Shown: positions 1,214 to 11,021 of the stretch, piece after piece
How the letters are laid out: each line of letters begins with the position of its first letter
Position numbering within the stretch: position 1 is the stretch's first letter
DNA from: Cystobacter fuscus
GTDB lineage: Bacteria; Myxococcota; Myxococcia; Myxococcales; Myxococcaceae
Assembly: GCF_002305875.1 (NCBI RefSeq)
Contig: NZ_CP022098.1
Coordinates: 4,154,001 to 4,218,000 of the forward strand
Length of the DNA stretch: 64,000 bases
Direction of reading: 5' to 3'
Program-made: the position numbers and the translations under genes
Notes under the pieces: model-generated
What the model was told of the DNA's origin: nothing
Seen by the model: only the letters and a program-made list of their open reading frames with translations
Database searches by the model: none

Positions 1214-2836
1214 TTGTCATTGGCTGAGCTCATGAAATTGGTGGAGTGTCTGGGTGATCATCCAGCGGCGCGGATCACCACGTGGGGCCGGATGGGGTTG
1301 GTGAGCCATTCCTTCGCTCAATTCCAGCAGGACGTGCGGGAGAAGGTGAGCGAGCTGCGCTGCCGCGGGCTCGACGAGTCCATGCGTGTCGGCGTGCTCG
1401 CGGCCAACACCTACGAGTGGCTCGTCCTGGATCTCGCGCTGGTGTCGCTCCGCTGCGAGATCGTCACCCTCACGGCCGCCCAGCTCGAGGGAGACCTCGA
1501 GCGGTTCGCGGCGGAGCAGGAACTCGCCGCGCTGTTCGTGCTGGAGAGCGGCCCGCCTGTCTCCCGCTTCGCTCACCTGGGGTGGGTCGTGGCCGCGGAT
1601 GCTCGCGAGCCAATCCTCCCGCGGGCCGGTGGTGCGTCGCGAGCCGGGCCGGAGTGGACTACTCCCTTCCGCGTCTTCTCCTCGGGGAGCACCGGGACGC
1701 CCCGGTGTATCTCCGTGCCCCGCTCCGGCCTCGAACAGGTGGTCGACGAGCTGCGGGACACGTATGCCTTCGACTCCTCCGACACCGTGCTGCTGTTCCT
1801 GCCGGTGTCCAACCTCCAGCAGCGCTTCCTCGTCTACTCGGCGCTCTGGTACGGCATCTCGTTCGTCCTCGTCGAGCCGCTACACCTGCTGCCCGCGCTG
1901 AAGCGGACGAGCCCCACCGTCCTCCTCGCGCCACCTCTGTTTTTCGAGACCATCGCCCGGAGGGTGACGCGATCCGCGCCGCTCCGGTGGTTGATGCGCA
2001 TGATGGCCCGGCTCCGGCCCGGGAGCCTCTTGGCCGGACCACGCCGGAGGGTGCTCGCACCGCTCCGGCGGAGAGTGCTCGCGGAGCTGGGCGGGCGGAT
2101 GCGGTTGATGATCACCGGCATGGCGCCCGTCGCCCGGACGACGCTGGAGGTGTACGAGGCCCTCGAGCTGCCGCTGTTCGAGGCGTATGGGATGACGGAG
2201 TGTGGGATCATCGCCTGTAACACACCCCAGGCCACGCGCTCCGGCAGTGTCGGGCGGCCGGCGCCCGGCGTCCGGCTCGAGCTCGCCCCCGACGGGGAGA
2301 TCATCGTTCACAGAGAGGTTCCACTCACCGCGGGCTATGTGGGCCTCGGGTCCGAGGCCAACGCGGAGACGTACCTGGGAGGCGGCCGGATCGCCACGGG
2401 CGATCTGGGTCGCTTCGACGGTGATGGCTTCCTCCACCTGCTGGGCCGCAAGAAGAACGTCATCGTGCTCGGAGATGGTCGGAAGCTCCACCCGGAGTTG
2501 ATCGAACGGGAGCTGATGGGCCTGCCGTTGATCCACCAGGTCGCGCTCCTGCCCGACGGCAACCTGGGGCTGGCCTGCGTCGTCCATCTCTCGGGGCCGG
2601 GAAGGGATGGCGAGGAGACGGTACGTGGGGAGTTGACGCGGCTCGTCCGGGAGTTGGCGGGCCAGGAGCTGACGCGTGTCGTGTTCACGGGGGAGCCATT
2701 CACTCCTGGCAATGGCCTGCTCACCCAGAACCTCAAGCTCAACCGGTGGGCGCTCCGGGAACTGTTGTCATCGTGGGGGAGGACCCCCGCTCGAAGAGAG
2801 GAGGACGCACACCATGTCAGTGTCAGCCGAGGATGA
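1214..2836 (+). CDS. AMP-forming acyl-CoA/acyl-ACP ligase (adenylation enzyme)
   Basis: An ANL-superfamily adenylating enzyme of 540 residues that would activate a carboxylic acid as an acyl-adenylate, presumably for loading on the ACP encoded next. Visible core motifs are A3 SSGSTGTPR near residue 155, A5 YGMTE near 324, the A7/A8 region TGDLGRF...GRKKN near 395-415, and A10 LTQNLKLNR with its catalytic lysine near 505. In A3 the usual lysine after TGxP is arginine. The longest frame starts at a TTG (1214); an in-frame ATG at 1232 is an alternative, and neither has a strong ribosome-binding site. The 3' end overlaps the ACP gene by 23 bp, so the two are translationally linked. The substrate cannot be read from the sequence. 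Confidence 0.9.
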   Translation: MSLAELMKLVECLGDHPAARITTWGRMGLVSHSFAQFQQDVREKVSELRCRGLDESMRVGVLAANTYEWLVLDLALVSLRCEIVTLTAAQLEGDLERFAAEQELAALFVLESGPPVSRFAHLGWVVAADAREPILPRAGGASRAGPEWTTPFRVFSSGSTGTPRCISVPRSGLEQVVDELRDTYAFDSSDTVLLFLPVSNLQQRFLVYSALWYGISFVLVEPLHLLPALKRTSPTVLLAPPLFFETIARRVTRSAPLRWLMRMMARLRPGSLLAGPRRRVLAPLRRRVLAELGGRMRLMITGMAPVARTTLEVYEALELPLFEAYGMTECGIIACNTPQATRSGSVGRPAPGVRLELAPDGEIIVHREVPLTAGYVGLGSEANAETYLGGGRIATGDLGRFDGDGFLHLLGRKKNVIVLGDGRKLHPELIERELMGLPLIHQVALLPDGNLGLACVVHLSGPGRDGEETVRGELTRLVRELAGQELTRVVFTGEPFTPGNGLLTQNLKLNRWALRELLSSWGRTPARREEDAHHVSVSRG

Positions 2837-3089
2837 GGAGTTGCTCGCCGTCATCGAGGAGGCCTTGCCTCCGGACAGGACCCGGCGCGTCCGTCCCGAG
2901 ACGGCGCTCCGCCAACTGGGAATCGACTCGTTGAATCTGGTGATCATCGTGGGCCGCTTCCTCGAGCGCTACCCGGTGCCGGTGGAGCCACTGCAGGAGC
3001 GGCTCGGCTCGGTCCGGACAGTCGGTGAGTTGCTGGAACTCGGCCGGATGGCCCGGTCGGAGTGGCGTCGCGAGATGGGTCATGCTTGA
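2814..3089 (+). CDS. Acyl carrier protein (free-standing)
   Basis: This 91-residue protein has the phosphopantetheine attachment motif LGIDSLN, with Ser39 as the modified residue, in the typical position for an acyl or peptidyl carrier domain. The ATG at 2814 is chosen because GAGAGGAGG lies just upstream at good spacing and the protein then starts directly before helix 1; longer in-frame versions would run back through the ligase gene. It overlaps the ligase by 23 bp and the amidohydrolase by 8 bp, so the three are almost certainly co-translated. It would hold the ligase's acyl product during modification by the SDRs or oxygenase, which is an inference from context. Confidence 0.9.
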   Translation: MSVSAEDEELLAVIEEALPPDRTRRVRPETALRQLGIDSLNLVIIVGRFLERYPVPVEPLQERLGSVRTVGELLELGRMARSEWRREMGHA

Positions 3090-4017
3090 GCCGGCCGTGG
3101 TTTCGCCTGGAGTGGTGGATGCGCATTGTCATGCGGCCTCGCGGCGTTTCATTCCTCGCTCCTTCGTGGAGGGAGCCATCCGCAACATCACCGTGATGCA
3201 CGAGGCACTGGGGGTGCCGGTCCAGCCCGGGCGCCTGGTGGACCGTGCCCTGGAGGCACTGGGAGACCATGGCTGTGACGAGCTGGTGCGCCAGATGGAC
3301 GAGGCGGGCGTCGACTGGAGTGTCCTCCTGCTCCCGGACTTCACGTACCGCCTGAAGGACTGCGAGCTGACCATCGAGGAGATGTTCGTCGAGCACCGGC
3401 GCATCCTCGAGCGGCACCCGGGCCGCTTCCAGGTCCTGGCGGGAGTGGATCCCCGATGGGGACGCGACGGACTGGCGCTGTTCGAGCGCGGGCTGAAGGA
3501 GTACGGTTTCCGGGGTCTCAAGCTCTATCCCCCGTGCGGCTACCGGGCCGATGACCATCTCCTGTACCCCTTCTATGAACTCTGCGCGGCCTGGAACGTC
3601 CCGGTGCTCCTGCACATGGGGCCGACCTCGTCCAACCTGGACTTCGAGCCCGCGCGCCCTGGCTGTGTCGATGAGCCCGCGCGCCTGTTTCCCAAGGTGA
3701 ACTTCATCCTCGCCCACGCGGCGACGGCCCATGTCGACGAATGCGCCATGCTCTGTGCCTTCCGGCCCAACGTCTACGCGGACGTGAGCGGGTTCCAGGA
3801 GGGGGCTCGGAGCGAGGGGCGGGGGTTGAGCCACCTGCTCCGGAGCGCGCCGGCCCACAAGCTGCTCTTCGGAACGGACTGGCCCGTCTTCCAGGAGGAT
3901 GCGCGCCAGGCCGAGCACCTCGAGTCCTTCCTGGAGGTGGCGCGCGAGGTTCTCGCGGGGCCTCGGTTACGGCTCGTGCTGCGGGAGAACGCGTCCCGTC
4001 TGTTCCGGGGCCGCTGA
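3082..4017 (+). CDS. Amidohydrolase-family (TIM-barrel) metal-dependent hydrolase or decarboxylase
   Basis: A 311-residue protein of the amidohydrolase-2 type, the family that includes aminocarboxymuconate-semialdehyde and gamma-resorcylate decarboxylases. Metal-binding signatures are visible in barrel order: DAHCH at residues 13-17, GLKLYP near 145, LLHMGP near 175, ILAHAATAH near 215, and the terminal GTDWP near 280. The start ATG (3082) lies inside the end of the ACP gene. Its place immediately after the carrier protein suggests that it hydrolyses, cyclises or decarboxylates a pathway intermediate. A hydrolase and a non-oxidative decarboxylase cannot be told apart here. Confidence 0.85.
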   Translation: MLEPAVVSPGVVDAHCHAASRRFIPRSFVEGAIRNITVMHEALGVPVQPGRLVDRALEALGDHGCDELVRQMDEAGVDWSVLLLPDFTYRLKDCELTIEEMFVEHRRILERHPGRFQVLAGVDPRWGRDGLALFERGLKEYGFRGLKLYPPCGYRADDHLLYPFYELCAAWNVPVLLHMGPTSSNLDFEPARPGCVDEPARLFPKVNFILAHAATAHVDECAMLCAFRPNVYADVSGFQEGARSEGRGLSHLLRSAPAHKLLFGTDWPVFQEDARQAEHLESFLEVAREVLAGPRLRLVLRENASRLFRGR

Positions 4018-4212: not shown

Positions 4213-5304
4213 ATGAATTCACAGTATGTGCTGGATTTGTTGATCGACCTGGCGTTGATCGCCGGTTTCGGGGTGCAGCACTCCATCGTCGCCATGGTGC
4301 GCCTCAAGGCCATCATCCAGAGGCTGACGGGGATTGATCCCATCTCCTGGCGTGGGGTGCAGTCCCTCATCAACGTTTCGTACTTGCTGATGGCGTGCGT
4401 CCTCTGGCGCGAGGTGCCCATCATCATCTGGGATCTGCAAGGGGTCTGGTATTGGGTGGCGGGGGGGACGCTGGTGGCCTCCTGGGCCTGGTACTTCCAG
4501 ATCCACCTCTTCGAGTACGACTGTGGCATGGCGTTCGGTTCGTCGGCGGTGCTGGCGCGCATGCACAACGCGAAGCCGCCGCCGATGGAGATGTGGAAGG
4601 TGGGCACGCGGCGTTGGCTGCGCTTCCCCGTGCACACCGCCTTCTTCCCGATGTTCTTCGCGTTTCCGAGGATGACGGTGAGCCTGTTGCTGCTGGCCAT
4701 GGCGGCGAACGTGGCCAACATCATCGGCACCGTCCTCTACGACAGGCGGATGGTGTTCCTCGTCAAGGATGTCTACCGCGAGTACCAGAAGGTCACCGGC
4801 CTGCTGCTGCCTCCGCTGCTGCGCGCCCCGGGCGGTGCGAAGCACATGCACTTCCCCGAGCCCTGGCACTGGTCCCGTGTGTCCCACAACGTCCCGGGCC
4901 TGCTGCTGGGCCTGCTGGTGGGCACGCTCTTCTGGAAGCTCCTGGGCCCCATCGGCCTCGTCACGGAGGAACTCGTCCGGGCGTGGTTCGGCGCTTTCTT
5001 CGTCGCGGTGACTGGCGGGGCCGTGGTGGGCGTGACGCATGCGTCGCGCGGCGCCGTGCTGGAACTCACGTATCAGCGGCTGCTCACGATGCTCGCCACC
5101 AACACGGCCCTGATGAGCGCGGTGTCGCTCCTCACGTGGACGGGGCTGTGCTTCGCCACCCACGGGAGTCTGCCCATGCTCTTCATCTTCTTCCCCATGT
5201 GGATGACCATGCTGTGGCTGGGTCACTTCGTGGCGTCGACCGTCTTCTTCGGGCTGCGGCCCGCGCTCGTCCCGGGCCATGCCACCGGCATCGTATCCGC
5301 CTAG
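4213..5304 (+). CDS. MddA/NnrU-like integral membrane methyltransferase with extra C-terminal membrane domain
   Basis: A 363-residue polytopic membrane protein. The N-terminal ~215 residues follow the NnrU/isoprenylcysteine-methyltransferase-like pattern of MddA (methanethiol S-methyltransferase): a first helix ending GVQHSI, then a helix pair, then [15 protein letters not shown] and a late YREYQKVTG before LLLP. In the family the central motif is usually RHPxY and a later ExR; here these are RFPVH and DRR, so SAM chemistry is not assured. About 130 further residues add roughly three more membrane helices, which MddA lacks. Start ATG 4213 follows CGGGGAGCGC; a longer upstream frame is unlikely because it has no hydrophobic pattern. 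It probably acts on a membrane-associated or volatile pathway product. Confidence 0.65.
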
Positions 5305-5333: not shown

Positions 5334-6194
5334 ATGCCCTCCTTTTCGGCACTCGCCCGTCCCTTCAACGTCAAACCCACCCTCCTCCCGCTCTCGCGCG
5401 GCTACCGCGGCGCCTGCTGGGCACCGCCCTTCGCGCTGGACGCCTCGCATAAGCAGGCCATCTACGGCGCGCTCCGCGAGGTCTCCACGCTCGCCTTCGG
5501 CGCCGACATGGCGCCCTACTGGCGCGACCGCTCCCTCGACGGTTACCTGGACAAGCTCACCCGCTTCTATTTCATCCACGGCGCGGATGACCGGATCGTC
5601 GGCTGGACGGGCTACCACCGGCTGACGCTGGCCGGGCAGACGTGCCTGTACCTGGACTCGACGGGGGTGCTCCCCGAGTTGCAGAACACCGGCATCATGA
5701 CGGGGCTTTTCAGTCAGTTCCTCCTGGCGGAACTGCTGCGCGCGGGACCGCGGGATCTCTACGTCGCCATGCGCACGGAGAACCCCGTCGTCTATCAGTC
5801 CTTCTACAAGGTGGCGGGAGAGCGCAACACCTTTCCCAGCCTCTCCATGCCGGTGCCGGACAAGGTCCAGGAGATGGGCCGCCAGCTCGCCGCGTGGCTC
5901 AAGCAGGGCGACAAGCTGGAGGCGCCGTCGCTGCGGGTGAAGGGCGCGTACGACAACCTGGACGCGCTCTACGGCGAGCTGCCCACCTGCGACGACGACA
6001 ACATCAACCGCTACTTCCGCCAACACCTGCGGCCCGTGGACGCCTTCCTCGTGCTGGCCCGGTTGTCCCTGCCGGGCATCCTGTTCTTCCTCACCACCAG
6101 GAAGCTGGGCAGGGCGCTGCGTGGGAGTCGCGCGCGGGCCGAGCGCAAGGCCGCTCGAGCAACCGGCTCTCACCTCTGGAATGCACGCCCATGA
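5334..6194 (+). CDS. GNAT-like acetyltransferase domain protein
   Basis: A 286-residue protein whose middle section, YFIHGADDRIVGWTGYHR followed by LYLDSTGVLP and LQNTGIMTGL, has the beta4-loop-alpha3 layout of GNAT acyltransferases; QNTGIM stands in the acetyl-CoA pyrophosphate-binding position (usually Q/RxxGxG/A). The C-terminal third contains a hydrophobic stretch near residues 248-262 that may lie on the membrane. ATG 5334 has GGAG eight bases upstream. The gene starts 29 bp after the membrane methyltransferase and its stop overlaps the next start (ATGA). A role in N- or O-acylating the pathway product is inferred. GNAT assignment is by pattern only and moderately sure. Confidence 0.55.
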   Translation: MPSFSALARPFNVKPTLLPLSRGYRGACWAPPFALDASHKQAIYGALREVSTLAFGADMAPYWRDRSLDGYLDKLTRFYFIHGADDRIVGWTGYHRLTLAGQTCLYLDSTGVLPELQNTGIMTGLFSQFLLAELLRAGPRDLYVAMRTENPVVYQSFYKVAGERNTFPSLSMPVPDKVQEMGRQLAAWLKQGDKLEAPSLRVKGAYDNLDALYGELPTCDDDNINRYFRQHLRPVDAFLVLARLSLPGILFFLTTRKLGRALRGSRARAERKAARATGSHLWNARP

Positions 6195-7504
6195 TCCTCG
6201 ATGACGTCGAACGCAGTTTCTGGGCGACGGACGGGTGCGGGAACATCCCCGAACTGGGGCTGAACCTGTCCGCGCTCAAGCAATACCTTCCGCGGGGCTG
6301 GCATCACCTCGTCCACCTGGCCCGGCTCGCCAACACCCTCCGCTCACTGCAGCGCAACGACGGCTCGATGGCGGACCAGGACCTGGCACGGCGGCTCTAC
6401 GAGCAGTCCGCGCTCGCCCTGGAGTCGGCGGCCAGCGGCTGCCCGGACGAGGATATCGCGGAGCTGATGCGTCTGCGGGCCGTGGGGTTGCGGCGCCATG
6501 ACACCCGTGAGGCCGCCACGGCCCTGGCCCGCGCGGCGAACGACCGGCTGGTGGTGCTGTGCGGACCGCTCGTCACCTGGCCCGGCAAGAGCGGTGCCTA
6601 TCTTCACTCCACCTGTGTCGCCCTGGAGGACGAGCGGCTCACGCGGCGCGTCCGTGCGCTCGAGGCGGAGCTGGGCGCGCTGCGCGGCTACTACGAGAAG
6701 CTCCTCGGTTTGCAGGGGCTGGAGCTGGCGGAGATCCCCTCCTTCACCGTCAGCGAGCTGGTGCTCTGTGGCGGCGAGGCCAATGGCTTTCCCAAGCACT
6801 TCACCTACTTCCTCCCCGAGGACGAGGGGCACCGCAAGCTCAAGCCGCGCAAGACGCTCATCTTCCACAACATCTACCTGGAGCGCACCCGCTGCCTGAG
6901 CCTGCCGCTGCTCCGGCGACTGTGTCCGGAGCTGCCGGTGAAGGACGAGGACGTCTGCGACTCGATGGTGGCACTCACCTGGTTTCGTGGGCACGATGTG
7001 GGGCACTACTGGCGCCACCGCGATGCCGCCTTCGGCAGGCTGAAGGAACTCGGCACGGCCCGTTCCTACGCGCTCCAGGAGGCGCTCTGCGACGTGCTCG
7101 GCTACCTGGCGCTGCACGGGCCGTGGCGGCAGGAGGCACGGCAGGCCGCGCCCACGGGCTTCTACCTCGCGGAGATGCTCCGCTTCCTCGGTCGCGGCGA
7201 CCAGACCATCCACCCGGACTTCGAGGCCGCGCACCTGGTGCTCTCCTACCTGGTGAAGAAGGACTTCGTCTCCCTGGACGCGGAGCGCGGCGAGCTGCGC
7301 GTCACCCTGGAGCGCTTCCAGGAGGGCGTGACGGAGGTGGCCGGGCAACTCATGCGCGCCGTGCTCGGCGGTGACGTGGACGAGGCGCGCCACCTGCTCG
7401 CGGAGCACGGGCTGGCGGCGGATTCCCGCCACAGCCACCTGGAGCCGGTCATCCGCCGGGCCGCGAGCATGGGCAATGACATCCGCTACACCTACGAGGG
7501 CTGA
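6191..7504 (+). CDS. Unrecognised protein with zincin-like HDxxH...E motif
   Basis: A 437-residue soluble protein that I do not recognise. The first half is helical and leucine/arginine-rich. The second half has HDVGH at residues 268-272 and, 24 residues later, a glutamate (Glu297) in YALQEALCDVLGYL. This spacing is like gluzincin metalloproteases (HExxH...E), except that aspartate replaces the general-base glutamate. It could be a metalloenzyme with altered chemistry or a helical metal-binding fold that matches by chance. The start overlaps the preceding stop in ATGA, and four bases separate it from the following SDR, so it is an integral member of the operon. No signal peptide is visible. 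Confidence 0.75.
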   Translation: MILDDVERSFWATDGCGNIPELGLNLSALKQYLPRGWHHLVHLARLANTLRSLQRNDGSMADQDLARRLYEQSALALESAASGCPDEDIAELMRLRAVGLRRHDTREAATALARAANDRLVVLCGPLVTWPGKSGAYLHSTCVALEDERLTRRVRALEAELGALRGYYEKLLGLQGLELAEIPSFTVSELVLCGGEANGFPKHFTYFLPEDEGHRKLKPRKTLIFHNIYLERTRCLSLPLLRRLCPELPVKDEDVCDSMVALTWFRGHDVGHYWRHRDAAFGRLKELGTARSYALQEALCDVLGYLALHGPWRQEARQAAPTGFYLAEMLRFLGRGDQTIHPDFEAAHLVLSYLVKKDFVSLDAERGELRVTLERFQEGVTEVAGQLMRAVLGGDVDEARHLLAEHGLAADSRHSHLEPVIRRAASMGNDIRYTYEG

Positions 7505-7508
7505 CAAG

Positions 7509-8291
7509 ATGGGCAATGACAATCTGGAAGGCAAGCGTGTGGTGCTCACGGGCGGAGCCAGTGGCATCGGCCGGGTGACGGCCGAGGCGTTCCTCCGCGC
7601 GGGGAGCCGGGTGGCCATCATCGACCGTGACGAGGAGGCCCTGTGGCGGGTGTTGGAGGAACTGGGGCCTGGCGTGTCTGGCTTCGCCGCGGACGTGTCG
7701 GAGCCGGCCTCGCTCCGGGAGGCTTTCGTCGGCGTGGACCGGGTGCTGGGGAGCGTGGACGTGCTCGTCGCCAACGCCGGTATCAGTGTGCGGCGTCCTT
7801 TCCTGGAGTGCTCCCCGGAGGAGTGGCGGCGGGTCATCTCCGTCAACCTGGACGGCGTCTTCTTCTGCGCGCGCGAGGCGGCCATACGGATGATGGCGGG
7901 AGCGGGGGGCGTCCTTCTGCTGATGGGCTCCACCAACGGGCTCGTGGGTTACCCCTATTACGCCTCGTACAACGCCTCGAAGGCGGGCGTCATCGAGCTG
8001 GCGCGCTCGCTCGCCATCGAGCTGGCCCCGAAGGTGCGGGTGAACGCCATCTGCCCCGGCTACGTGATGACGCCGATGCAGGAGCGCGAGTACACGCCCG
8101 CGATGCTGGAGCAGGTGAACGCGAAGATTCCCCTTCGCCGCCACGCGCGTCCCGAGGAAATCTCCGAACTCTTCCTCTTCCTCGCCTCGGACCGGGCCCG
8201 CTACATCCACGGGCAGGCGCTCGTCATCGACGGAGGCGAGCTGGCGGGCGGGCTGGCCAGCTCGGGGGTGAGCAGCGAGGGACGGACATGA
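7509..8291 (+). CDS. Classical short-chain dehydrogenase/reductase
   Basis: A 260-residue classical SDR, the typical size. It has TGGASGIG at residues 15-22 for NAD(P) binding, NAG near 89-91, a catalytic serine in LLMGSTNG, and the active-site YxxxK as YNASK near residue 158. An aspartate after beta2 (IIDRD) favours NAD over NADP. PGYVMTPM follows the usual substrate-loop pattern. It would reduce a ketone or oxidise an alcohol in the pathway, either on the carrier protein or on the released product. GAGGG lies upstream of ATG 7509 within the end of the previous gene. Confidence 0.93.
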   Translation: MGNDNLEGKRVVLTGGASGIGRVTAEAFLRAGSRVAIIDRDEEALWRVLEELGPGVSGFAADVSEPASLREAFVGVDRVLGSVDVLVANAGISVRRPFLECSPEEWRRVISVNLDGVFFCAREAAIRMMAGAGGVLLLMGSTNGLVGYPYYASYNASKAGVIELARSLAIELAPKVRVNAICPGYVMTPMQEREYTPAMLEQVNAKIPLRRHARPEEISELFLFLASDRARYIHGQALVIDGGELAGGLASSGVSSEGRT

Positions 8292-8359: not shown

Positions 8360-8418
8360 TGGATTCCCGGTGGGCCGGTCTGATGTCGGATCATCCCTAT
8401 CATCTCGTAGGAATCAAC

Positions 8419-9684
8419 ATGATGAGCGAACACCGAGTGGACACCGGGTCCGAACCCTCTCGCACTCCCGGAGCGCGGGAATTCATCCAGCAGCTCGAGC
8501 GGGAGGTGGGCGGGCACAGGGCAATCCATCATCCCTATCTGCGGGCGCTCGCGAGTGGCGAGTTGCCGGATCCGGTGGGCGCGCTACGGGATTACGCGCA
8601 CCAGTACTACGCCTACAGCATCAACTTCCAAAGGTATCTGACGGCCACCATCTCGCAGCTCGACAGCTCGGAGCACCGGCGCGCATTGCTGGCCAACCTG
8701 CTGGAGGAGGCGCACGGGGTGAGCCCGGACGAGGCGGAGTTGATGCGCCGCCACGGCATCGAGCTGGAGTGGGTGGAGAACGTGCCCCATCCGGTGCTCT
8801 ACCGGCGCTACCTCGAGGCGCTGCGCATGGACGAGGCCTGGCTGCGGGCGCACCCCTTCTGCGACGAGGCCGTGCAATGGAGCCAGCTCTTCCTCCAGTG
8901 TTGCAGCTCGTTGGGGGCGCCCGTCGCGGTGGGGGCGATGGGCCTTGGCACGGAGCTGGTTGTCCGCCGCGTGTACACGCCCATCCTGGAGGCCATCAAG
9001 ACATACATGGATGTGTCACCCAGGGACAGGGTGTTCTTCGATCTGCACCAGAAGATCGACGATGAGCACGGAGAGGTGTTGCTGCGCATCGCGGAGGAGC
9101 TGGCGGAAGACCCCACGAAGCGCGCGCTGCTGCGCACGGGCGCGTTGATGGCGCTCAACCTGCGGGCGGGCTTCTACGACAGCCTGCTGTGCCGCGCCCG
9201 GGAGATGCCGTGCGTCACCCGGAGCGGCTCGTCGGGTTTCGTGGACACCACGCGCAACCGGGACTCGCTGGAGCCGCGGCCGGTGGAGCACGCGCTGGAG
9301 ACGCTCATCCACCGGCAGGTGGGACGCGAGGGTGTAGCGGAGGAGTTCAGTCGCTCGCGGGGGCACCCGGTGTACGAGGTGTCGCTGCCCTCACGCGCGG
9401 TGAGCTTCAGCGTCGGAGAGCTGGCGCCCGGCCATGCGACGTCCAACCACCGCCACGCCTACGAGTCTCTCATCTACGTGCTGGAGGGCTCGGGCTGGTC
9501 CATCATCGAGGGCCAGCGCGTGGAGTGGCGCGCGGGCGATGCGCTCTATGTCCCGCCCTGGAACTGGCACCAGCACGTCGCCGGCGGGGAGAAGGCGCTC
9601 TACCTCACGGGGACGAACCTGCCCCTGCTGCACCAGCTCGGCCAGACGGTGCTTCGTCAGGAGCAGGGGCCGGCCAATCACTGA
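8419..9684 (+). CDS. Haem-oxygenase-like di-iron oxygenase fused to a cupin (SznF-like architecture)
   Basis: A 421-residue two-domain enzyme. Residues ~20-260 are a helical PqqC/TenA/CADD-like domain with ligand-type residues Glu96/97 (NLLEEAHG), Glu179 (GLGTELVV) and the hallmark H-x3-D-x2-H at His210, Asp214 and His217. That pattern marks haem-oxygenase-like di-iron oxidases (UndA, CADD, SznF). Residues ~315-400 form a cupin with His344, His346, Glu349 and His384. The order di-iron oxygenase then cupin is that of SznF, which N-hydroxylates methyl-arginine and then rearranges it to an N-nitroso group. ATG 8419 is preferred over ATG 8383 because TAGGA lies at correct spacing. Strong hairpins flank the gene. 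Similar chemistry is a hypothesis; the substrate is unknown. Confidence 0.82.
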   Translation: MMSEHRVDTGSEPSRTPGAREFIQQLEREVGGHRAIHHPYLRALASGELPDPVGALRDYAHQYYAYSINFQRYLTATISQLDSSEHRRALLANLLEEAHGVSPDEAELMRRHGIELEWVENVPHPVLYRRYLEALRMDEAWLRAHPFCDEAVQWSQLFLQCCSSLGAPVAVGAMGLGTELVVRRVYTPILEAIKTYMDVSPRDRVFFDLHQKIDDEHGEVLLRIAEELAEDPTKRALLRTGALMALNLRAGFYDSLLCRAREMPCVTRSGSSGFVDTTRNRDSLEPRPVEHALETLIHRQVGREGVAEEFSRSRGHPVYEVSLPSRAVSFSVGELAPGHATSNHRHAYESLIYVLEGSGWSIIEGQRVEWRAGDALYVPPWNWHQHVAGGEKALYLTGTNLPLLHQLGQTVLRQEQGPANH

Positions 9685-9836: not shown

Positions 9837-11021
9837 ATGGGCCTCGTCAAGGGTTCCCTCCTGCAGCACACGAAACACTTCGTGCATGAGCGGTTCGGTC
9901 AAGACGCCTGGAGGATGCAGGTGGAGGCGTTGCCGGCGGTGGGCCGTACCGGCGTGCTGCGGCCGGTGCCCGCGTGCTGGTACGATCTGGGCCTCTTCCG
10001 GTTGCTGCTCCGAGCGCTGTGCGAATACACCGGCTGCGGGAGTGGCTTCGTCATGGGAGAGCTGGGCCGCTTCACGGTGGAGCGGGAGCTGTTGGGAGAG
10101 CAGCGGTGGGGGCTCCACCTGGCGAGGCCGTCCTTCGCGGTGCGCAACCTGGACCTGTGCTGGCGGCGCATGTTCGACGTGGGCCGGTGGGACTCGCAGC
10201 ACGAGGATGGAGCGCTCGAGTTGCGGCTGACGGAGTGGGAGGGGGCGCCAGCGCTATGTGATTGGATTGGCGGCTATGTCCGCCGGACGCTCGAGCTGTT
10301 CGGTTGGCAGGTGGAGGGGTTGGAGCACTCGGACGGGCTCTCGCACGACGCCGCCACCTGTGCCTTCCGGGCCGAGGGGCACCAGCGTCCCGAGGTCGCC
10401 CGGGTGCACAAACTCGCCTCCCGGGCCGAGGTGCTCCAGGCGGCGCGCGTGCTCGCGCACTGCTCGCGCGCGGAGGTGCTGGCGCGCTTCGTGGTGGAGC
10501 TGAGCCGGGTGCAGCTCGGTTGTAGTGGCGCGCAGCTCTGGGTGACGGGGGATGAGGGGGAGGGAATGCGGCTGCTGTACTCGGCCGGGGAGTGGGGACG
10601 GGACGGCCAGCGCAGCTGCTTCCTGCTGGAGACGAGCGGGCGCAAGGTGGGGCGCATCGAGGTGTGGCATGTGCAGAAGCAGCTCGAGGAGTCCTCGGCC
10701 ACCCTGCTGGACGAGCTGATGCCGTTCATTGCCGAGAGACTGGTGGGCCTGCTGGAGTCACGCCATTCGCAGTTGGCCGTGCTGCGCAACGAGGACGATG
10801 CCTTCCGCCAGCGGTTGCAGGCGGCCCGGCACCTGTGGGGGCTCACCGCGCGTCAGGCGGATGTCGTCGCGCTGGCGGTGCAGGGACAGACGAACAAGGA
10901 GATCGCCGGGGCGCTCGGCTGCCAGAAGAGCACCGTGGAATTGCACATGTCTCACATCCTCAAGAAGTGTGGGGCGGACAATCGGAGCATGCTCGCGGCC
11001 AGCTTCTGGACGTTGTGCTGA
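9837..11021 (+). CDS. LuxR-family transcriptional regulator with myxobacterial sensor region
   Basis: A 394-residue cytoplasmic regulator. The C-terminus (about residues 335-394) is a LuxR/FixJ helix-turn-helix with LTARQADVVALAVQG, NKEIAGALG and STVELHMSHILKK. The N-terminal ~180 residues begin MGLVKGSLLQHTKHFVHERFG and resemble the DUF2378/H-NOX-like sensors common in myxobacteria; a GAF-like segment (FVVELSRVQLGCSGAQLWV) lies between. No phosphoacceptor receiver domain is present, so it probably responds to a ligand or partner protein. As the only regulator in the cluster it is the natural candidate for controlling it. ATG 9837 is the first good start after the hairpin. The HTH is certain; the sensor assignment is tentative. 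Confidence 0.82.
   Translation: MGLVKGSLLQHTKHFVHERFGQDAWRMQVEALPAVGRTGVLRPVPACWYDLGLFRLLLRALCEYTGCGSGFVMGELGRFTVERELLGEQRWGLHLARPSFAVRNLDLCWRRMFDVGRWDSQHEDGALELRLTEWEGAPALCDWIGGYVRRTLELFGWQVEGLEHSDGLSHDAATCAFRAEGHQRPEVARVHKLASRAEVLQAARVLAHCSRAEVLARFVVELSRVQLGCSGAQLWVTGDEGEGMRLLYSAGEWGRDGQRSCFLLETSGRKVGRIEVWHVQKQLEESSATLLDELMPFIAERLVGLLESRHSQLAVLRNEDDAFRQRLQAARHLWGLTARQADVVALAVQGQTNKEIAGALGCQKSTVELHMSHILKKCGADNRSMLAASFWTLC

Follow-up and report, generated by a model that had tools for sequence, protein, structure and literature searches.

A conserved fusion of a heme-oxygenase-like dimetal oxygenase and a cupin in Cystobacter fuscus, with unfused relatives among 3-amino-4-hydroxybenzoate-type genes

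A single chain with two oxygenase domains

The window analysed here, a stretch of 64,000 nucleotides from the genome of Cystobacter fuscus, contains an open reading frame at positions 8419-9684 whose product joins a heme-oxygenase-like dimetal oxygenase (HDO) and a cupin in one chain. Pfam assigns residues 57-249 to Haem_oxygenas_2 (PF14518; 5.9e-23) and residues 334-394 to Cupin_2 (3.1e-15), and orthologues of the whole fusion are found in five other genomes of the family at 99, 90, 82, 81 and 78% identity, so that close orthologues are present in 6 of the 96 family genomes when the window genome is counted. These domain matches and this conservation bear out a preliminary description of the window, which had proposed such a chain. 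The frame is open from an ATG at 8383, and the second in-frame ATG, at 8419, has GTAGGA ahead of it. The features of the locus are collected in Table 1.

Table 1. Genes and domains at the fusion locus (positions in the window)
Feature	Position	Strand	Remarks
AMP-binding ligase	1214..2836	+	seen beside 3/6 fusion loci
Acyl carrier protein (ACP)	2820..3089	+	seen beside 3/6 fusion loci
Amidohydro_2 protein	3082..4017	+	seen beside 3/6 fusion loci
Membrane protein (probable)	4213..5304	+	kept at 6/6 fusion loci
GNAT acetyltransferase-like protein	5334..6194	+	kept at 6/6 fusion loci
437-aa protein without family match	6191..7504	+	HDVGH at 268-272; kept at 6/6 fusion loci
SDR oxidoreductase	7509..8291	+	kept at 6/6 fusion loci
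HDO-cupin fusion gene	8419..9684	+	421 aa; alternative start 8383 gives 433 aa
HDO domain	8461..9210	+	ligands E97, H124, E179, H210, D214, H217
Variable linker and gentisate-type cupin	9214..9681	+	H344, H346, E349, H384, H386
LuxR-type (GerE) regulator	9837..11021	+	kept at 6/6 fusion loci

The window genome (G000) has eight PF14518 matches, including that of the window; those outside it are at G000:C1:10461026-10461541 and six further places, and one of the eight lies within a 535-aa open frame. Among the relatives, L037 sits on contig NZ_JABBJJ010000138.1 of a genome (G056) taken as Pyxidicoccus fallax DSM 14698. One viral_contigs scan found no relative.

Conservation of the metal sites

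None of the six HDO ligands listed in Table 1 varies among the 16 aligned sequences, which include the window protein, and E96 is likewise invariant. This alignment excludes the distant fusions L055-L058 and also the L053 HDO, since its gene call starts late. In a second set of 15 sequences, which adds the cyanobacterial L073, D214 is nearly invariant, L073 having Glu there. When the domain is aligned to CADD (1rcw), E97 falls on E81 and H124 on H88, while E179, H210, D214 and H217 fall on E142, H174, D178 and H181, positions that we take to be CADD's metal ligands. Both the PF14518 match and the fold of the domain model place this half of the protein among the HDOs, and its three histidines and three carboxylates, with HxxxDxxH on core helix alpha3, form the 3H/3C ligand set, which the available part of a review describes as the majority HDO class (PMC13108848). 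A seventh ligand of the SznF kind, a fourth carboxylate supplied by an auxiliary helix (3H/4C), might be sought at residues 50-83. No acid in this region is invariant across the 16 HDO sequences, SznF's own residue lying outside the direct alignment; each of the six fusion sequences nevertheless has Asp at position 58 (D58), and at 51, 58 and 82 an acid is found in 10 or 11 sequences of the set.

The five cupin residues of Table 1 are invariant in 18 of 18 aligned sequences, an alignment from which the cupins of another subfamily (L046, L055-L058 and L071) were left out. The residues that the preliminary description had named as ligands or ligand candidates (H210, D214, H217, E96 or E97 and E179 in the HDO, and His344, His346 and His384 in the cupin) are therefore all present and invariant, but its list of HDO ligands omitted the alpha1 histidine, H124. 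With these ligands in place, the window protein is likely to work as a coupled O2-activating enzyme.

Nearest relatives of each half

Searched as a profile against the PDB, the HDO half is closest to CADD, a 4-aminobenzoate (pABA) synthase (2.5e-20), followed by BesC (1.4e-14) and HrmI (8.4e-7), and reaches SznF only at a borderline E of 0.13-1.1. The cupin half is closest to gentisate 1,2-dioxygenase 3bu7 (1.2e-32), then 5-nitrosalicylate dioxygenase (3.5e-7), and has no SznF match at E <= 1; its top NCBIfam match is 5-aminosalicylate 1,2-dioxygenase (2e-15, far below the cut-off). Both the HxH...H metal site and the sequence relation expected of a gentisate-type cupin are present.

An AF2 model of the HDO alone (mean pLDDT 70, pTM 0.67) gives, among the matches listed, fold Z values of 19.5 for CADD, 19.3 for HrmI, 18.0 for BesC and 16.5 for UndA, where values less than 1 Z apart are counted as tied. 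The full-length AF2 model is poor (mean pLDDT 47.8); its Foldseek matches include HDOs. SznF is among neither the best 50 of these nor the 50 VIA matches listed for the HDO-only model, and in both cases its absence is uninformative.

Because each half has nearer relatives elsewhere, we reject membership of the window protein in the SznF group. The preliminary description had called the protein SznF-like: in its domain order, an N-terminal HDO and a C-terminal cupin in one chain, the likeness stands, as the Pfam matches confirm, but in the evolutionary sense it fails, given an E of 0.13 to SznF against 2.5e-20 to CADD for the HDO half and the missing cupin match. The likeness is thus one of domain order, and it is probably convergent. 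A separate candidate for an SznF relative, on a Tistrella plasmid, was also rejected: it is a cupin gene adjoining a fumarylacetoacetate hydrolase gene, a setting that resembles a gentisate pathway.

The identity of the HDO as a pABA synthase was rejected too, on residue grounds. CADD sacrifices Tyr27 and Lys152 according to the available part of PMC11965152. In our alignment Tyr27 corresponds to Leu41 (Leu in 16/16) and Lys152 to Ile189 (I, V, L or F in 16/16). As these sacrificial residues are missing, the window HDO is not a pABA synthase of the known kind, and that identity could be upheld only if some other pair of residues were sacrificed.

The neighbourhood of the fusion gene

All six fusion genomes share one gene order, membrane protein - GNAT - 437-aa protein - SDR - HDO-cupin - LuxR regulator, interrupted in two of them by a DUF2817 gene between the SDR and the fusion. 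The probable membrane protein is weakly like the methanethiol S-methyltransferase MddA (1e-17; 64 bits against a cut-off of 270). The 437-aa protein has no Pfam match at E <= 0.05 and no NCBIfam match at E <= 0.001; its HDVGH motif is invariant and E297 is conserved, and it may be a new metal enzyme. A consensus scan of the gaps between 4018 and 9836 found neither a terminator-like hairpin nor a sigma-70-like promoter.

The ligase, ACP and amidohydrolase, seen at only half of the fusion loci, are rejected as part of the defining block and look like a variable addition to it. In G056 the set points the opposite way relative to the fusion. At the other three loci the upstream stretches that were read, of 3.1, 5.2 and 5.7 kb, do not contain it, though it may lie further off. 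Two of the fusion genomes outside the ligase-set three have condensation-domain genes upstream of the fusion, and one has a flavin monooxygenase-like gene. A closoxazole-type condensing role for the window amidohydrolase was also rejected: the protein keeps DAHCH and GTDWP, with 23-28% identity to the closoxazole-type amidohydrolases, which have GSEYP or GSEFP in place of the latter motif. Gene ends at the fetched loci are approximate, having been called by a simple codon-usage caller, and in most neighbourhoods a single representative was scanned with Pfam, its assignments being carried over to the others through BLAST clusters.

The preliminary description had placed the gene in an operon with an acyl ligase, an ACP, an amidohydrolase and SDRs. 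Of these partners the AMP ligase, the ACP, the Amidohydro_2 protein and one SDR (7509-8291) are confirmed, but a second SDR is not: Pfam gives nothing at E <= 0.001 for the leftmost ORF on the minus strand. In the genome-neighbourhood comparison that it had called for, the six-gene block is kept at all six loci and the ligase set was seen beside three. Its view that the setting differs from that of streptozotocin biosynthesis holds, no gene of the neighbourhood having been identified as arginine-modifying, and an amine substrate is plausible. Its idea of a possible new pathway in myxobacteria takes on a more definite shape through the 3,4-AHBA association described below, but its suggestion of N-N bond formation gains no direct support.

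Unfused pairs and 3-amino-4-hydroxybenzoate-type clusters

An HDO and a cupin of the same subfamilies also occur together as separate genes. We found them fused at six loci, as adjacent separate ORFs at four (L045, L047, L048 and L049) and as adjacent overlapping ORFs at five (L050-L054, among them the second locus of the window genome, at 8.05 Mb). Since all three forms occur, the partnership of HDO and cupin is independent of fusion.

Seven of these nine unfused pairs lie with 3-amino-4-hydroxybenzoate (3,4-AHBA)-type genes. The neighbours in the five-locus group L050-L054 are AA_kinase, DHQS II, aldolase and Amidohydro_2 genes and two ligases; at the 8.05 Mb locus they are AA_kinase, DHQS II, an aldolase like ADTH synthase, Amidohydro_2, a BagE/FevW-like and a second ligase, and OsmC. 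An NCBIfam scan was run on L050 alone, whose proteins the other four loci match at 82-99%. Its DHQS II protein matches 3-dehydroquinate synthase II (3.5e-83) and then BagC/FevH 3,4-AHBA synthase (5.5e-69), and further matches are to ADTH synthase (2.2e-57) and BagE/FevW ligase (4.5e-126), all below the curated cut-offs. The genes of this group look like those of 3,4-AHBA and closoxazole-like biosynthesis. L045 and L049 have an aldolase, an aspartokinase (AA_kinase and ACT) and ligases, with DHQS II some 15 kb further upstream, at the far end of a series of genes that continues on one strand without a break. The contigs of L047 and L048 carry no DHQS II gene. A DHQS II and a DhnA-type aldolase in one cluster are thus present at seven unfused loci but absent at the window locus; the two DHQS II genes of the window genome are at 8.05 and 9.00 Mb.

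The association can also be counted by genome. DHQS II genes are present in 11 of the 12 genomes that hold these HDOs, against 13 of the 96 family genomes overall, an overlap with a hypergeometric P of 1e-11 that is inflated by relatedness; within-genus shuffles, with the groups set by hand, reached an overlap of 11 in 43 of 200,000 cases. The count of 12 excludes G083 and G040, which have more distant HDO-cupin genes and no DHQS II; with both counted in, the overlap is 11/14 and was reached in 114 of 100,000 within-genus shuffles. The association is weak when only the fusion genomes are taken, of which 5/6 have DHQS II, G073 being the exception (2,650 of 200,000 within-genus shuffles), and also for the six genomes with all HDO copies outside DHQS II loci, again with an overlap of 5/6 (1,335 of 100,000 shuffles).

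Among the 22 DHQS II matches of the family, 21 loci were read, that of G080 being left out. At the seven with an HDO and a cupin the sequence read contains no multicopper oxidase gene, whereas 13 of the 14 without the pair have one, and the remaining locus (L088, from P. fallax) is cut short by the end of its contig. Such exclusivity would follow if the pair takes the oxidative position in the cluster, but two separate cluster lineages, with no replacement, would give the same picture. The loci with the multicopper oxidase, which are of the closoxazole 3,4-AHBA type, are L084-L087, L089, L091 and L093-L099, and four of them (L085, L094, L096 and L097) have an FAD monooxygenase as well. The pfxA-E genes of P. 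fallax are described in PMC12118335; in its available text neither the multicopper oxidase nor the FAD monooxygenase is mentioned, and a term search of that text returned zero words starting with 'cupin' or 'oxygenase'. The open-licence PMC literature that we searched yielded no paper linking an HDO and a cupin to 3,4-AHBA or to myxobacteria.

Lone cupins, trees and distant relatives

Cupins of this kind also occur alone. Among the 15 lone cupins listed, nine myxobacterial loci were fetched, and at these the cupin is followed by a DHDPS-family gene, identified by Pfam at one locus and by homology at the others; the same arrangement is found at 3/3 plasmid loci, from Pseudomonadota, Bacteroidota and Cyanobacteriota. 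This arrangement has the gene logic of ring cleavage followed by release through a hydratase-aldolase, as in PhdI/PhdJ. In the cupin tree the five-locus group joins the DHDPS-linked cupins (99/99), and the cupins of the fusion and of L045-L049 lie outside that clade; the HDO tree sets the five-locus group apart from the fusion as well. Long branches make the deeper joins of these trees unsure. Because the five-locus cupins group with the DHDPS-linked cupins and not with that of the fusion, the HDO-cupin pairings may have arisen separately, more than once, and function may not carry over from one to another.

Whole-genome searches of Myxococcota and of 386 sampled cyanobacterial genomes returned several more distant arrangements. 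A 503-aa HDO-cupin fusion with a cupin of a different subfamily (L071:706-2217, cyanobacterial G432) adjoins dndE (L071:2412-2810; PF08870, 4e-45) of a DNA phosphorothioation system, and L072-L074 have the L071-type HDO in 505-aa open frames. In Microseira wollei (L038:9473-10714) an HDO is preceded by EF-hand-like repeats and has an in-frame stop which, judged by eye, falls at the position of E97; either the gene is broken or the sequence contains an error. At L046:3435-5072 (G083) the HDO stands behind a domain that by eye is cyclic-nucleotide-binding-like, and a separate cupin of another subfamily follows. Distant fusions of 383-404 aa are found at L055, L056, L057 and L058 (G035, G037, G036 and G040), where they adjoin crotonase and M1 peptidase genes; judged by eye, HxxxDxxH looks degenerate in all four, and the second cupin histidine is missing in L055-L057.

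Possible functions of the HDO-cupin pair

We tentatively favour, while granting it somewhat less than an even chance, an account in which the two domains are a diiron and a mononuclear-iron oxygenase acting in turn on an aryl amine of the o-aminophenol type, with N-oxidation followed by a cupin step. The HDO site, with two irons or iron and manganese, would react with O2 to give a peroxo intermediate and would oxidise the amine of the substrate, 3,4-AHBA or a compound derived from it, to the hydroxylamine or nitroso stage. The Fe(II) of the cupin, held by H344, H346 and H384, would then chelate the ortho O/N pair, and a second O2-dependent step would open or rearrange the ring, after which the SDR, the acetyltransferase and the membrane methyltransferase-like protein could tailor or export the product. 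That the HDO acts first is suggested by domain and gene order. Both metal sites are complete, and the domain model is equally close to the N-oxygenase HrmI and to CADD, which speaks for the aryl-amine account, as does the association of the unfused pairs with 3,4-AHBA-type genes; against it, CADD, to which the HDO is most similar in sequence, does not act as an N-oxygenase, and the closest cupins with a name are ring-cleaving enzymes. For the family, the guess at a substrate with most support is an o-aminophenol-type aryl amine; for the window copy, which lies outside the 3,4-AHBA clusters, it is a weaker one.

The same cupin relationships lead to a rather unlikely but substantial alternative, a ring-cleavage cascade with no N-oxygenation, in which the HDO would oxidise a ring or side chain, by hydroxylation or decarboxylation, and the cupin would serve as a gentisate-type ring-cleaver. 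The gentisate, 5-nitrosalicylate and 5-aminosalicylate dioxygenase matches favour it, as do the DHDPS-family genes behind the nine myxobacterial and three plasmid lone cupins, but no such gene, nor any other obvious gene for handling a ring-fission product, was identified in the fusion block, two of whose proteins lack a Pfam match. If CADD rather than the dioxygenases is taken as the guide, the HDO would make p-aminobenzoate or another aryl amine by self-sacrifice and the cupin would modify it afterwards. Of the solved HDOs, CADD is the nearest in sequence and, among the matches listed, shares first place in fold with HrmI; with Leu41 and Ile189 in place of the known residue pair, which is thereby ruled out, we consider this very improbable.

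Chemistry of the SznF kind would have the HDO hydroxylate nitrogen and the cupin form an N-N bond (N-nitroso or diazeniumdiolate) on guanidine or another nitrogen-rich substrate. The common domain order and the two intact metal sites are in keeping with it, and SznF alone among the characterised HDOs has a C-terminal cupin, as stated in the available part of PMC13108848; yet the borderline HDO match, the cupin without a match at E <= 1 and the neighbourhood with no identified arginine-modifying gene all tell against such chemistry, as may the want of an invariant acid at residues 50-83, and we think it improbable. Little credence is also given to a protective or sensory oxygen/redox protein outside biosynthesis, comparable to DtpC of desiccation tolerance, although DtpC demonstrates that an HDO can be protective (PMC13232832, available part) and relatives have N-terminal regions that by eye are cyclic-nucleotide-binding-like or EF-hand-like: the fusion sits in a conserved enzyme-rich block, with the ligase, ACP and amidohydrolase beside three and condensation-domain genes beside two of the six loci.

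The account based on an aryl amine can be extended, speculatively and with the balance of probability against it, to a previously undescribed family of coupled diiron HDOs and mononuclear-iron cupins, assembled separately from SznF. Its members would oxidise the nitrogen of o-aminophenol units (3,4-AHBA and derivatives) and then remodel them to nitroso-, azoxy-, diazo-type or ring-opened aromatics in myxobacteria, with a multicopper oxidase in their place in many 3,4-AHBA-type clusters. The gene arrangements suggest a putative new oxidation step in myxobacterial natural products. About a dozen HDOs among more than 10,000 are functionally validated, according to the available part of a 2026 review (PMC13108848), and a second HDO-cupin lineage would tell whether the joining of diiron and mononuclear iron sites is a recurrent solution. 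Relatives tied to a defined aromatic amine provide a concrete substrate to test, and the loci with HDO and cupin suggest that the closoxazole pathway of myxobacteria, described only recently, has tailoring branches yet to be characterised.

Comparison with known systems

SznF, the N-nitrosourea synthase of streptozotocin biosynthesis, resembles the window protein in having an HDO and then a cupin in one chain, with the complete HDO ligand motif and the cupin histidines; it differs in its borderline profile match, in the nearest relatives of both halves, which lie elsewhere, and in its gene setting. The pABA synthases CADD and NePabS are closest to the window HDO by sequence, with a fold Z of 19.5 and the same six ligands, but the window protein lacks both sacrificial residues and has an attached cupin, and an insert separates E97 from H124 by 27 positions where their CADD equivalents are 7 apart. 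HrmI, a lysine N-oxygenase that the available part of PMC13108848 assigns to the 3H/3C ligand class, is as near in fold (Z 19.3), but acts on an aliphatic amine, has no cupin and matches in sequence only at 8.4e-7. Gentisate 1,2-dioxygenase and 5-nitrosalicylate dioxygenase, the closest relatives of the cupin, have the HxH and WHxH motifs in common with it, but they are ring-cleaving enzymes without a fused HDO. Finally, the closoxazole clusters pfx (Pyxidicoccus fallax) and clx (Clostridium cavendishii) can be compared at the level of gene content: G056 has both the fusion and, elsewhere, L088 with the pfxA-E order, and the HDO and cupin pairs belong to 3,4-AHBA-type clusters of variant composition, which include ligases and, for the five-locus group, an amidohydrolase too, whereas the fusion of the window lies outside any 3,4-AHBA cluster.
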